From NCBI GenBank assembly GCA_017620655.1, contig JAGAUT010000001.1:1-34682 (forward strand): 34,682 bases of DNA. Reading direction: 5' to 3'. The notes beneath the pieces were generated by a model, which was not told the DNA's origin, did no database searches, and worked only from the letters and a program-made list of their open reading frames with translations. Position 1 is the stretch's first letter. Every line of letters starts with the position of its first letter. A program made the position numbers and the translations under genes. Origin of the DNA: Clostridia bacterium. Lineage in GTDB: Bacteria > Bacillota > Clostridia > Oscillospirales > CAG-382. Positions 3,702-23,948 of the stretch are shown in pieces.

Positions 3702-4574
3702 TTACCGCCTCCCTCCGTTGCCGTATAAATCGTTTCTCACCATATTCGACAGGTTTGTTTCCGCCGTTGCGGGTATATTGAACAGCGAAGTTATCAGATA
3801 GGCTTTTGTATTGCGGATTTTTTCATTGCGCCGCGAAAATTCAAGCATAAAAGCCTCTAACCTGCTGTAATCAATTTCAAGAAATCTCTGCCGTACAAGC
3901 TCAGTCGGGTACTGCTTTTTCTCTATGGTGTAGTACGGGGTGTCTATCGTAAGTACCTCCGCCATTACGGAAACTATTTCATCAATAACCGCCTTGTCAT
4001 AGCTGTAAACAAGAGTGTCGTATTCAATATTATTTTTAATACGCTCTGTGTTTTTGCTGTATCTATCTATCCATCGAATTTCTTGGGCTTGCTCTCTTTG
4101 ATTGATGGATGGATATTTAATTAAATCAGTATTTATTTTTTCTTTATTTGTTATCTCTATATTTAATTGCGTTGGATTTTCCGATGTCGGGTTATCCGTA
4201 ATCGGGTTATCCGACATTGGATTTTCCGAACACGGGTTTTCCAATATCGGCTGCTCCGTGATTGGATTTTCCAAACGCGGCTGCGGCTGCTCGTAAATTG
4301 TATATTCTATCGCTGCCATTTTGCCAAACTCGTCACGCCCCTGTTTTCGAGTAATATATCCGGCTTCTTCAAGCTCCAAAACTGCCGTCCGTATTGCATC
4401 AATCTTTTCCTTATTGATACGAGCAAGACCTTTTAGGGTGTAGTCCCAATCGTCAGGCAATGATAACATCTGCGACAAAAGTCCTTTTGCTTTCAAGGAC
4501 AAATCCTTGTTACGCAGATGATGATTTGACATAACCGTGTAATTTTTGTTTTTCTCAATTCTGAATACTGACAT
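3702..4574 (-). CDS. Replisome-organizer-like winged-helix protein with DUF6017 C-terminus
   Basis: 290 aa from ATG 4574. This start is preferred over one 36 bases upstream because AGGAGG lies 7 bases before it and the protein then begins MSVFRIEKNKNYTVM, typical for the family. Residues 1-90 form a winged-helix replication-initiator-like domain (SLKAKGLLSQMLSLPDDWDY; then TAVLELEEAGYITR). Residues 102-136 are seven pentapeptide units of the form [E/D][N/Q]Pxx, a flexible linker. The C-terminal part (about 160-285) matches DUF6017. Such proteins open the replication/transfer region of clostridial integrative elements and are thought to help replication of the excised circle (inference). The 79-aa gene upstream overlaps its start by 20 bases. 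Confidence 0.85.
   Translation of the reverse strand: MSVFRIEKNKNYTVMSNHHLRNKDLSLKAKGLLSQMLSLPDDWDYTLKGLARINKEKIDAIRTAVLELEEAGYITRKQGRDEFGKMAAIEYTIYEQPQPRLENPITEQPILENPCSENPMSDNPITDNPTSENPTQLNIEITNKEKINTDLIKYPSINQREQAQEIRWIDRYSKNTERIKNNIEYDTLVYSYDKAVIDEIVSVMAEVLTIDTPYYTIEKKQYPTELVRQRFLEIDYSRLEAFMLEFSRRNEKIRNTKAYLITSLFNIPATAETNLSNMVRNDLYGNGGRR
4167..4271 (-). repeat. 15-base tandem repeat coding for [E/D][N/Q]Pxx pentapeptides
   Basis: Seven imperfect 15-base units lie in frame inside the DUF6017 gene and encode ENPIT, EQPIL, ENPCS, ENPMS, DNPIT, DNPTS and ENPTQ. The first, second and third positions are nearly fixed and the last two vary. Such linkers change copy number by slippage. Seen directly; function inferred. 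Confidence 0.85.
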
Positions 4575-21528: not shown

Positions 21529-22215
21529 TTACTGGCCGTATACATTATCAACCGTAATACCTTTGATATGTCTTGCATCATTGACAATTTCAAACTGAGG
21601 ACAACAAAGTTCTCCTTCCTCACCCCAGAAAGAAACAACAGTTATTGCGGTAAACTGAGGGCAGATAGCTTTTGACACAAAGGGCATGGGCAGATTGAAT
21701 ATATGAGAAAGTGCAGCAGTAGACGAACCGCCATGGCTTGCAAGAAGCACATTTTTATATGGCTGACTGCCAACTCTGTAGAATTCACCGTCACGGGTAA
21801 AGCCGAGTTCTGCAAGCAATTTATCAATTCCGACACCTACTGCCAGAGAGCGGTCTGTTGTAAAGGAAGTATTGAACGGGTCTTCAAGCGGCCATGTGGG
21901 AGACATCAGGCTCTGTCCCCTCTGCACCATACGCATTGAAAGAGTCCACGGATCATAACCGTTTTCGCCTTTATTACTTCCGGCAGGTCCCCATCCGATT
22001 TCTCTCATGAAGTCGAGCTTTTCAACCTCCATATTTCTTCCATCGGCTATATGAAGAGCTGTTTCATATGCTCTGCCGCAAGAAGAAGCATAAAACTTAT
22101 CAATATTTTCTTCTTTCAATCTTTCGGCACAAGCTTCAGCTTGTTTATGACCAAGTTCGGTAAGGCAGTCGTTTTTATAATCGGGGTGTCCGTGGCGGAC
22201 AAGAATAAGTCTCAT
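21529..22215 (-). CDS. Histidine phosphatase (phosphoglycerate-mutase-like) family protein
   Basis: 228 aa. N-terminal LILVRHGHP supplies the phospho-accepting His8 and Arg7; the second His is in LLASHGGSS. LTELGHKQAEACAERL and FYASSCGRAYETA (second Arg/catalytic region) follow the family pattern. An insertion of about 50 residues (WGPAGSNKGENGYDPW to EDPFNTSF) makes it longer than GpmB-type proteins and probably forms a substrate lid. Substrate unknown; sugar phosphates or phosphoglycerate analogues are usual. Monocistronic, promoter at 22297-22326. Confidence 0.9.
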   Translation of the reverse strand: MRLILVRHGHPDYKNDCLTELGHKQAEACAERLKEENIDKFYASSCGRAYETALHIADGRNMEVEKLDFMREIGWGPAGSNKGENGYDPWTLSMRMVQRGQSLMSPTWPLEDPFNTSFTTDRSLAVGVGIDKLLAELGFTRDGEFYRVGSQPYKNVLLASHGGSSTAALSHIFNLPMPFVSKAICPQFTAITVVSFWGEEGELCCPQFEIVNDARHIKGITVDNVYGQ

Positions 22216-22296
22216 AAAGTCACCATTTTATCAAAACGCAATTTTGGGACACGAGAAAAACATTTTTTGTCAATCTCTATATGCCCCAACATGTTA

Positions 22297-22326
22297 ATAA
22301 TATCACAATGAGATATGGTTTGTCAA
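22297..22326 (-). promoter_or_regulatory. Promoter of histidine phosphatase gene
   Basis: On the minus strand, TTGACA (22321-22326), an 18-base spacer and TATTAT (22297-22302). The leader is about 75 bases. Confidence 0.65.
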
Positions 22327-22400
22327 TAGTTTATTGTGCATTTACAACAAGTTCTCCCTATTATACAAAAAGTTATTGTAAACTTTGACTATTTTACCGC

Positions 22401-22430
22401 TTGATTTTCCCTGTATTCCTATGTTACAAT
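22401..22430 (+). promoter_or_regulatory. Promoter of the micro-ORF repeat locus
   Basis: TTGATT (22401-22406), an 18-base spacer and TACAAT (22425-22430). The predicted start near 22437 falls directly before the first repeat unit, so the whole array would be transcribed. Confidence 0.65.
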
Positions 22431-22437
22431 ATAGGCG

Positions 22438-22672
22438 AGGAAAGGAAGGTACACTCCAATGAACAAATAGCTTTCCAAAAAATTAAGGAAAAGGTATAGT
22501 CCAATGAACGAGTAGCTTTAATCTAATTTCAGAAGAAAAGGTACGGTCCAATGAACGGTTAATATTTTCCAAGAGTTTTTTAGAAAAGGGTTTGGTACAA
22601 TGGCAATGTTTAAATTCCTACCCAAAAAAGAAATCTGAGAAAGAAAGGTACAGTCCAATGAGAAAGTAACCT
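22438..22672 (+). repeat. Five-unit array of ribosome-binding-site plus micro-ORF
   Basis: Five imperfect units share a core close to AAAGGTACAGTCCAATGAAC. Their ATGs are at 22459, 22504, 22551, 22600 and 22658 (spacing 45, 47, 49, 58). Each has AAGG or AAAGG about 9 bases before ATG, a workable ribosome binding site. Four units open a three-codon ORF: Met-Asn-Lys-stop (22459-22470), Met-Asn-Glu-stop (22504-22515), Met-Asn-Gly-stop (22551-22562), Met-Arg-Lys-stop (22658-22669). The fourth unit in order (22600-22638) encodes MAMFKFLPKKEI. The stop codons differ (TAG, TAG, TAA, TGA, TAA) while the RBS-ATG part is kept, which suggests selection on initiation rather than on the peptide. I know no family with this layout. 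Confidence 0.75.
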
Positions 22673-22805
22673 TCCCCCGATAATTATTTCGGACACATAC
22701 CGGTGAACATTCAAAGTGAACAGTTAAAATCTGACACGGCGGTGTAACGCATAACATATATATTATTCTTTTTAGTGTTCCGGTTGATGATTTAAAGGTT
22801 TGTGA
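22673..22805 (+). ncRNA. Putative structured RNA segment after the micro-ORF array
   Basis: Several possible stems follow the array: CCGA/TCGG (22676-22691), ACACGGCGGTGT (22734-22745), and a longer-range pairing of ACCGGTGAACA (22699-22709) with TGTTCCGGT (22776-22784) that encloses the second stem. No protein-coding signal is visible. The array plus this segment would form one transcript from the 22401 promoter. RNA class not recognised. Confidence 0.35.
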
Positions 22806-22880
22806 ATGAGTAGTTATTGGACAGCCCCTCATCTGATGCATAAGAAAAAATGCAGGATAAAACACACATTACAATTTAAT
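22806..22880 (+). CDS. Possible 24-aa ORF with its own RBS
   Basis: AAAGG lies 7 bases before ATG 22806, giving MSSYWTAPHL followed by a basic stretch and the TAA at 22878-22880. The RBS layout resembles the repeats upstream. Coding status is unproven; it may be a sixth, longer unit of the same locus. Confidence 0.25.
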
Positions 22881-23061
22881 ATTTATTTAAAAGCTAAGAA
22901 ACAAACAGCAAATTGAAGTATTTATTATAATAATTCACAAAGTAACTTGTAAGTAACTTAAGAAAGTTTTGTAGTTTGATACCCCTAAAGAAGATATTCG
23001 GTGTGTTTTAAGAATTGCATTGACGGTTGCACAGGTAGATTTGAAAGGAGAAGTTAATAAA

Positions 23062-23094
23062 ATGACATTAGATTTCAAGAGTGAACAGAAGTGA
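23062..23094 (+). CDS. Possible 10-aa peptide ending at a hairpin
   Basis: AAGGAG at 23045-23050 and ATG at 23062 give MTLDFKSEQK. Its TGA stop lies inside the left arm of the strong hairpin at 23089-23134, so ribosomes ending here would touch that hairpin. This resembles a leader-peptide layout. The 11-base RBS spacing is somewhat long. Confidence 0.35.
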   Translation: MTLDFKSEQK

Positions 23095-23153
23095 CCCTCG
23101 GTTGTGTGTAAAGAAACATGACTGAGGGTCACTTCCATTTATTCTCTTTTTTT
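23089..23153 (+). terminator. Long hairpin with U-rich tail ending the micro-ORF locus
   Basis: AAGTGACCCTCGGT (23089-23102) pairs with ACTGAGGGTCACTT (23121-23134) through 14 pairs including one G-U, with an 18-base loop. A T-run at 23147-23153 follows 12 bases later. It probably ends the transcript from 22401, just before the next promoter at 23175. Confidence 0.65.
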
Positions 23154-23174
23154 ATGTCCGTTTTTACTTTTCTA

Positions 23175-23203
23175 TTGACCTATGTCTTTCAAAATGGTAT
23201 AAT
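23175..23203 (+). promoter_or_regulatory. Promoter of DUF554 gene
   Basis: TTGACC (23175-23180), a 17-base spacer and TATAAT (23198-23203), about 31 bases before the ATG. Confidence 0.85.
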
Positions 23204-23234
23204 GCAGTGAATTCATTTTGAAAGAGGTATTTAA

Positions 23235-23948
23235 ATGCCCGGACTCGGAACTGTTATAAATGCCGCTGCAATAATTTTGGGCGGTCTTATAGGCTTATTC
23301 TTCGGGAAACTGATGAAAGATAAAATGCGGGATTCTCTATGCAAAGCCTGCGGTATATGCGTCTTGTTTATCGGTCTTGCAGGTGCTCTTGACGGCATGC
23401 TTGAACTTTCGGAAAGTGACATTGTAAGCGGAAAATCAATGCTTTTAATCGGCTGCATCGCCATTGGAACTTTAATTGGAGAAATCATAAATCTCGAAGA
23501 CAGATTCGAAACTTTTGGCGAATGGCTGAAAAACAAAACAGGAAACTCCGGAGACAAACTGTTTGTAGAGGGTTTTGTCAATGCTTCACTCACTGTATGC
23601 ATCGGAGCAATGGCAATCGTCGGCTCCATTCAGGACGGCATTTTAGGTGACATTTCTATTCTTGTTACAAAGGCAATCCTCGACTTTATAATAATTCTTA
23701 TTATGGCAGGTTCTCAAGGTGTCGGGTGTGTCTTCTCTGCCCTACCCGTTGCAATACTTCAGGGATCGGTTACTGTATTATCAACACTTATAAAGCCTAT
23801 AATGACTGCCGCTGCATTATCGAATCTTTCCCTTATAGGTTCTGTGCTAATTTTCTGTGTCGGTATAAACCTTGTATTCGGCAAAAAAATAAGGGTTGCC
23901 AATCTTTTACCGTCAGTTATCATCGCTGTAATTGCCGCTTTTATTTGA
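23235..23948 (+). CDS. DUF554 family membrane protein
   Basis: 237 aa with about seven hydrophobic segments. DUF554 signs are the start PGLGTVINAAAIILGGLIGLFFGK, the GTLIGEIINLEDR loop, FVNASLTVCIGAMAIVGSIQDG, and a FSALPVAILQG segment near the middle. RBS AGAGG sits before ATG 23235. The family (E. coli YqgA, Bacillus YdfK) is an uncharacterised inner-membrane protein, sometimes proposed to be a small-molecule transporter. Own promoter; terminator shared with the convergent AraC gene. Confidence 0.93.
   Translation: MPGLGTVINAAAIILGGLIGLFFGKLMKDKMRDSLCKACGICVLFIGLAGALDGMLELSESDIVSGKSMLLIGCIAIGTLIGEIINLEDRFETFGEWLKNKTGNSGDKLFVEGFVNASLTVCIGAMAIVGSIQDGILGDISILVTKAILDFIIILIMAGSQGVGCVFSALPVAILQGSVTVLSTLIKPIMTAAALSNLSLIGSVLIFCVGINLVFGKKIRVANLLPSVIIAVIAAFI

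Follow-up and report, generated by a model that had tools for sequence, protein, structure and literature searches.

A previously uncatalogued family of free-standing RNA genes in Clostridia with minigenes at the 5' end and a stop codon inside the terminator

The window of this study is a stretch of 34,682 nucleotides from a Clostridia bacterium, and the question that it raises is what occupies the approximately 1 kb without a normal gene (about 22216 to 23234) that separates a histidine-phosphatase gene on the minus strand (21529-22215) from a DUF554 gene on the plus strand (23235-23948). A preliminary description, made from the letters of this stretch, had proposed a structured locus with short ORFs that follows an array, in which a ribosome on the last ORF would affect the folding of a terminal hairpin, as in leader-peptide control. 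The absence of a normal gene was borne out, and the structured RNA locus with its short ORFs is real: the arrangement in which a stop codon lies within the terminal stem is kept in about 100 relatives. The limits first given were too narrow, as the conserved unit begins about 400 bp further upstream and includes the array.

The locus is one copy of a previously uncatalogued family of free-standing RNA genes that is spread through Clostridia, and in the window the conserved RNA gene spans approximately 22265 to 23152. Comparison of the relatives establishes the architecture of this gene and makes us highly confident that it is a free-standing, conserved RNA gene with translated ends. Both ends of the RNA, with minigenes at the 5' side and an ORF that stops inside the terminator at the 3' side, look designed for ribosome occupancy. 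Elsewhere in the window, positions 4172 to 4280 hold a tandem repeat with a period of 45 nt and a sub-period of 15 nt, composed of TCGGGTTATCCGAAA-like units.

Distribution of the RNA gene

When 60 related genomes were searched at the DNA level, the element had clear relatives within its own genus and family. Eight sequences served to build a covariance model of its final 96 nt (R1), which matched 73 of the 394 genomes of the order, in many cases with several hits in one genome, and a refined model built from 83 members and used with a stricter threshold (R2) matched at least 69 of the 394 genomes of the order and at least 12 of 245 genomes from elsewhere in the class; these counts are lower limits because scoring covered no more than about 10-17 candidates in each genome, and the E-values of the searches are rough. 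The first model gave no convincing match in a wider sample of the phylum, and its weak matches outside the class, some of them within protein genes, were discarded as chance-like. About 100 members were identified with the covariance models, which favor sequences like those that built them, and all of these members belong to Clostridia. A DNA pattern retrieved at least 118 stretches, all of them from Clostridia; the named genomes that contain them are mostly metagenome-assembled genomes of gut or rumen Clostridia (Oscillospiraceae, Faecousia, and others). The pattern had zero matches among 2.9 million viral contigs; BLAST against phage and plasmid records found no element. The distribution is patchy, with up to four copies per genome, and in L056, L083, L095, L138, L169, and L183 copies of the RNA gene are arranged head to tail about 440-530 bp apart, each tandem copy being a complete promoter-to-terminator unit. 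Most of the genomes are metagenome drafts and the sequences are related, so that all of these counts differ from counts of independent events. One of our sets, genome_contigs, was picked by a pattern in which part of the terminal ORF is prescribed, and the codon statistics are therefore limited to the covariance-model set; the minigene and promoter statistics use both sets, the pattern having left those regions untouched.

When the window and the other scanned loci were compared with the 4227 families of Rfam 15, at gathering as well as relaxed thresholds, the element gave nothing beyond sub-threshold chance matches, and the sole matches to reach the gathering score, a T-box and tRNAs, lay elsewhere in the fetched loci. 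The covariance models found no match to OLE, ROOL, GOLLD, or raiA, the RNAs with which the preliminary description had proposed a comparison. The terminal peptides were not mentioned in the publications that a literature search returned.

Terminal ORF and terminator hairpin

As first described, a 10-aa ORF, MTLDFKSEQK, is present on the plus strand at 23062-23094 behind the Shine-Dalgarno site AAGGAG (23045-23050), and its stop codon falls in the left arm of a hairpin. The TGA sits four bases into this arm, and the hairpin (plus strand, 23088-23135) comprises 20 consecutive pairs rather than the 14 originally counted, followed by a U-rich tract at 23136-23155. The fold of 126 nt has a free energy of -49.7 kcal/mol, which corresponds to z = -7.7 relative to dinucleotide shuffles. 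The covariation that the preliminary description had suggested looking for among aligned homologues is strong in this stem: in 83 sequences, whose alignment was fitted to the structure, 97% of the cells are paired and 20 of 20 pairs have changed on both sides, a level reached by none of 500 shuffles and not approached by any slid version of the stem, and a plain MAFFT alignment of eight sequences, which was not structure-fitted, agrees. Across the family, 88 of 95 members have a U-run after the stem, and the median stem energy is -31 kcal/mol.

The terminal ORFs form an M(x)L[D/E]xK family of 7 to 11 aa that ends with TAA (45), TGA (43), or TAG (9). The stop codon starts within the left arm in 86 of the 95 distinct members and lies at most two bases from the arm in the other 9. 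Two candidate readings of this region were rejected: a SECIS-like interpretation of the TGA and its hairpin, because other members have TAA or TAG in its position, and GUAAAGAA as a fixed functional loop, which is kept in only part of the family.

The leucine of the terminal ORF is spelled TTA, TTG, CTG, CTA, CTC, or CTT across the family, and synonymous codons are also used for lysine (AAG/AAA) and aspartate (GAT/GAC). One-base differences at the L, D, and K codons amount to 2009 synonymous versus 842 non-synonymous, at positions where only 4 of the 24 possible changes are synonymous and among sequence pairs that are not independent. By every comparative sign, this ORF of about nine codons is translated. 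Since the L-D/E start is conserved, the peptide itself may have a role of its own. Given that the stop-in-stem arrangement is kept in about 100 relatives, translation and folding of the hairpin very probably interfere with each other by design; this part of the first description stands.

Control region, minigenes, and RNA body

The region that can be aligned across families covers about 200 bp ahead of the first minigene (22265-22458 in the window; alignment of 27 sequences). A sequence-only model of this control region (R3), which scores 112.6 bits at this site of the window, recovers members already known from their 3' ends together with a previously missed one in G090; the latter encodes MEPTFAAE followed by a TAG within the base of its terminator stem, and provides an out-of-sample check. 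Matches below about 45 bits resemble A+T-rich background and were discarded.

The predicted promoter of the RNA lies on the plus strand at 22401-22430, with a -35 element TTGATT (22401-22406), a spacer of 18, and a -10 element TACAAT (22425-22430); its homologues show TTGCAA or TTGAAA, a spacer of 17, and TATAAT. A divergent sigma-A promoter is predicted on the minus strand at 22297-22326 (TTGACA at 22326-22321 and TATTAT at 22302-22297), from which transcription would start near 22289. Among 98 good-scoring members, the divergent promoter is found 110-165 bp from the -10 of the plus strand in 84 and precisely 132-134 bp from it in 53; as judged from these spacings, the smaller groups near 123 and 143-145 bp are one helical turn less and one more than approximately 133 bp. 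The predicted divergent transcript (minus strand, 22250-22289) begins with GTTGGGG in the window, where its terminator hairpin is weak, and with GTTGGG in most members. A hairpin and a U-run directly follow its start in 57 of 86 members, versus 26% in shuffles under the same loose criterion, which predicts a divergent RNA of about 30 nt. Between both promoters, at 22340-22400 in the window and also in relatives, there are A+T-rich palindromes such as TTTTGTACAAAA that resemble regulator sites, and L034 has a Rex-like TTGTGAAGTTTTCACAA.

The array that precedes the structured region proved to be a set of minigenes, each consisting of an ATG, two codons, and a stop, together with one longer unit, and a Shine-Dalgarno site is located before each of them. 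On the plus strand of the window these are MNK (22459-22470), MNE (22504-22515), MNG (22551-22562), the longer unit MAMFKFLPKKEI (22600-22638), and MRK (22658-22669), and G002 and G003 retain the first one. In 66 of 73 members, only one or two codons follow the ATG of the first ORF downstream of the promoter, versus 12.7% expected from shuffled sequence. Our promoter picker preferred GG...CC-ATG contexts, so the conservation of the CC is partly selected for, and the position of the stop played no part in the choice. A clear minigene is absent in 3 of 76 members and also in the G090 member. As the codons vary (MYR, MNR, MRK, MKT, MGN), it is the shortness of the minigene and not its peptide that is conserved; what we find is a strong Shine-Dalgarno site before a very short ORF under selection, as expected of a bacterial minigene. 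Most members carry a single minigene, and arrays occur in the genus of the window (up to five), in L036, and in L038. The longer unit is an ORF of 12-13 aa that ends in KEI and a stop, with the related ORFs MVKIISLLKRKEI and MARTKFLPKKEI in G002 and G003, and for this reason it may be one more ORF that this genus translates.

The RNA body is poorly conserved and has little conserved fold, and pairing between the 5' and 3' modules gave no signal across members. The long-range pairing ACCGG-AACA/TGTT-CCGGT of the preliminary description can be read in the letters (22699-22709 and 22776-22784), but the two closest homologues do not retain it. The separate 24-aa ORF with an AAAGG site was likewise not confirmed: the ORF at 22806-22916 has 36 aa and is not conserved, and the only ORF of 24 aa is a TTG-start extension of the terminal ORF (23020-23094). 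A possible long-range helix on the plus strand joins TAAAACACAC (22858-22867) and GTGTGTTTTA (23001-23010), which are complementary at 10 of 10 positions and show one compensatory change in G002. An internal motif, ACACGGCGGTGTAACGC...ATATAT (plus strand, 22734-22763), is common to one subfamily, and its core CGGCGGTG is found in 17 of 81 nonredundant members. In the window and in these 17 relatives, the motif ACACGGCGGUG includes GGCGGUGU, which we take to be complementary to the universally conserved stretch ACACCGCC of the 16S rRNA decoding site; the match may be due to chance.

Possible function and relation to known systems

What the RNA does, including its ribosome occupancy, sensing, and output, we infer from this architecture. 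The leader-peptide control first suggested would make the element an attenuator of the gene that follows it, a reading that accords with a translated short ORF whose stop codon lies within the left arm of an intrinsic terminator and with the position of the DUF554 gene of the window, downstream on the same strand. However, across copies no gene family recurs among the neighbors: the downstream genes share no common family, and 83 of 144 (58%) are convergent with the RNA while 61 are co-directional. G002 has the same upstream neighbor as the window but carries its DUF554 gene elsewhere, DUF554 orthologues occur without the element in G001, G002, G003, and G007, and the DUF554 gene of the window has a predicted promoter of its own (TTGACC at 23175 and TATAAT at 23198). 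Antiterminator pairing was not detected either, as pairing with a member's own arms was not superior to pairing with arms exchanged among members, and the ORF has no run of regulatory codons. Because neighbors differ and most downstream genes oppose the RNA, control of DUF554 by a leader peptide is unsupported, and we regard an attenuator of the downstream gene as highly improbable.

The reading that we prefer, with a probability of roughly 0.4, is that of a free-standing RNA with a translation-sensing 3' end and with minigenes that hold ribosomes at its 5' end. Ribosomes would load, stop, and reload on the minigenes and stay out of the RNA body, and their recycling would protect the 5' end against nucleases. 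At the other end, a ribosome finishing the last ORF would cover or open the left arm, so that translation and folding of the hairpin would be mutually exclusive: when translation is slack, the hairpin would fold and the RNA would be terminated and protected, and when ribosomes finish the ORF, the hairpin would be disturbed, with read-through or loss of 3' protection as the result. The amount or the form of the RNA could then report translation activity, and its candidate outputs in trans are the RNA body, the MLDxK peptide, and the capture of ribosomes. In E. coli, termination is almost entirely lost when a stop codon lies a few bases ahead of the terminator, an effect mediated by the ribosome (PMC4824070), and axe-txe has a two-codon minigene that increases expression in cis, possibly because it protects the RNA (PMC8708949); these precedents favor a 5' end held by minigenes and a 3' fold that depends on translation. 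Terminators that lie no more than 100 bp into a coding region are reported to work efficiently in E. coli (PMC4824070), which weakens translation-coupled read-through for an ORF of nine codons. Translation sensing must also contend with the lack of a conserved downstream gene that would gain from read-through, with the undetected antiterminator pairing, and with the members that have no clear minigene.

A rather less likely, though possible, alternative is a dual-function small RNA, in which the minigenes would be only 5' stabilizers, the body or the MLDxK peptide would regulate targets in trans, and the stop codon would overlap the terminator only because the 3' end is tightly packed. The comparative evidence for a free-standing RNA with its own promoter, terminator, and translated short ORF agrees with such an RNA, as do the tandem copies, which resemble sibling sRNAs, the N-terminal L-D/E kept through synonymous change, and the internal motif kept in one subfamily. 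The body, however, is poorly conserved, there is no known target, and the stop is held at the base of the stem in nearly all 95 members despite varying ORF length and stop codon, a constraint that exceeds the needs of packing. This same constraint, like the conserved start of the peptide, would be left unexplained if the element were a ribosome sponge, that is, a strongly expressed RNA that takes up ribosomes or initiation factors and lowers translation when induced. The strong Shine-Dalgarno sites, the free codon content of the minigenes, and the arrays of up to five in the genus of the window suit a sponge, but most members have a single minigene and a large abundance of the RNA would be required, which makes it improbable. 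The patchy distribution, the several copies per genome with varying neighbors, and the tandem copies that share everything from promoter to terminator would also be expected of a selfish or mobile cassette, bounded by terminators and spreading as a unit. We consider such a cassette quite improbable, as the element is absent from the viral contigs, phages, and plasmids searched, the window genome and G002 have their upstream neighbor in common, and neither terminal repeats nor target duplication were noticed on informal reading of the sequences.

With translation sensing as the preferred reading, we tentatively propose a new class of RNA that would be defined by its ribosome-loading sites and not by its fold, combining 5' minigenes, a 3' ORF embedded in the terminator, and phased divergent promoters, and that might act as a sensor or regulator of translation. 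With this family, gut Clostridia gain a widespread RNA gene that was not catalogued before. The family also constitutes a natural, repeated experiment on the role of two-codon minigenes without a following protein gene and on the effect of a stop codon held inside a terminator; with more than 100 natural variants, both questions are directly testable.

Among known systems, the fthC motif has a stop codon in its stem P2 (PMC11109978). Like the element, leader-peptide attenuators (trpL, the ilvB uORF, and the fthC motif) have a short translated ORF that overlaps a hairpin near an intrinsic terminator, but they have one conserved gene downstream and regulatory codons or an antiterminator, neither of which was found in the element, whose neighbors vary. 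OLE, ROOL, GOLLD, and raiA are, as the element is, intergenic RNAs of several hundred nucleotides from Firmicutes; the element differs from them in having mRNA-like ends and little conserved fold in its body, in addition to matching none of their covariance models. SgrS/SgrT and RNAIII are dual-function small RNAs, free-standing and with a short ORF and their own terminator, features that the element shares, whereas its several ORFs, two-codon minigenes, stop inside the terminator, and phased divergent promoter set it apart from these RNAs, as does the lack of a known target. Finally, the bacterial minigenes that have been reviewed, namely axe-txe mg2, EHEC LEE1 and LEE4, and B. subtilis ycbK (PMC8708949), resemble those of the element in having, close to the 5' end, a strong Shine-Dalgarno site, an ATG, one or a few codons, and a stop, with a proposed role in RNA protection or in the tuning of translation in cis. 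Those minigenes precede a protein gene, whereas the minigenes of the element are followed by none, are conserved throughout a family, and can form arrays.
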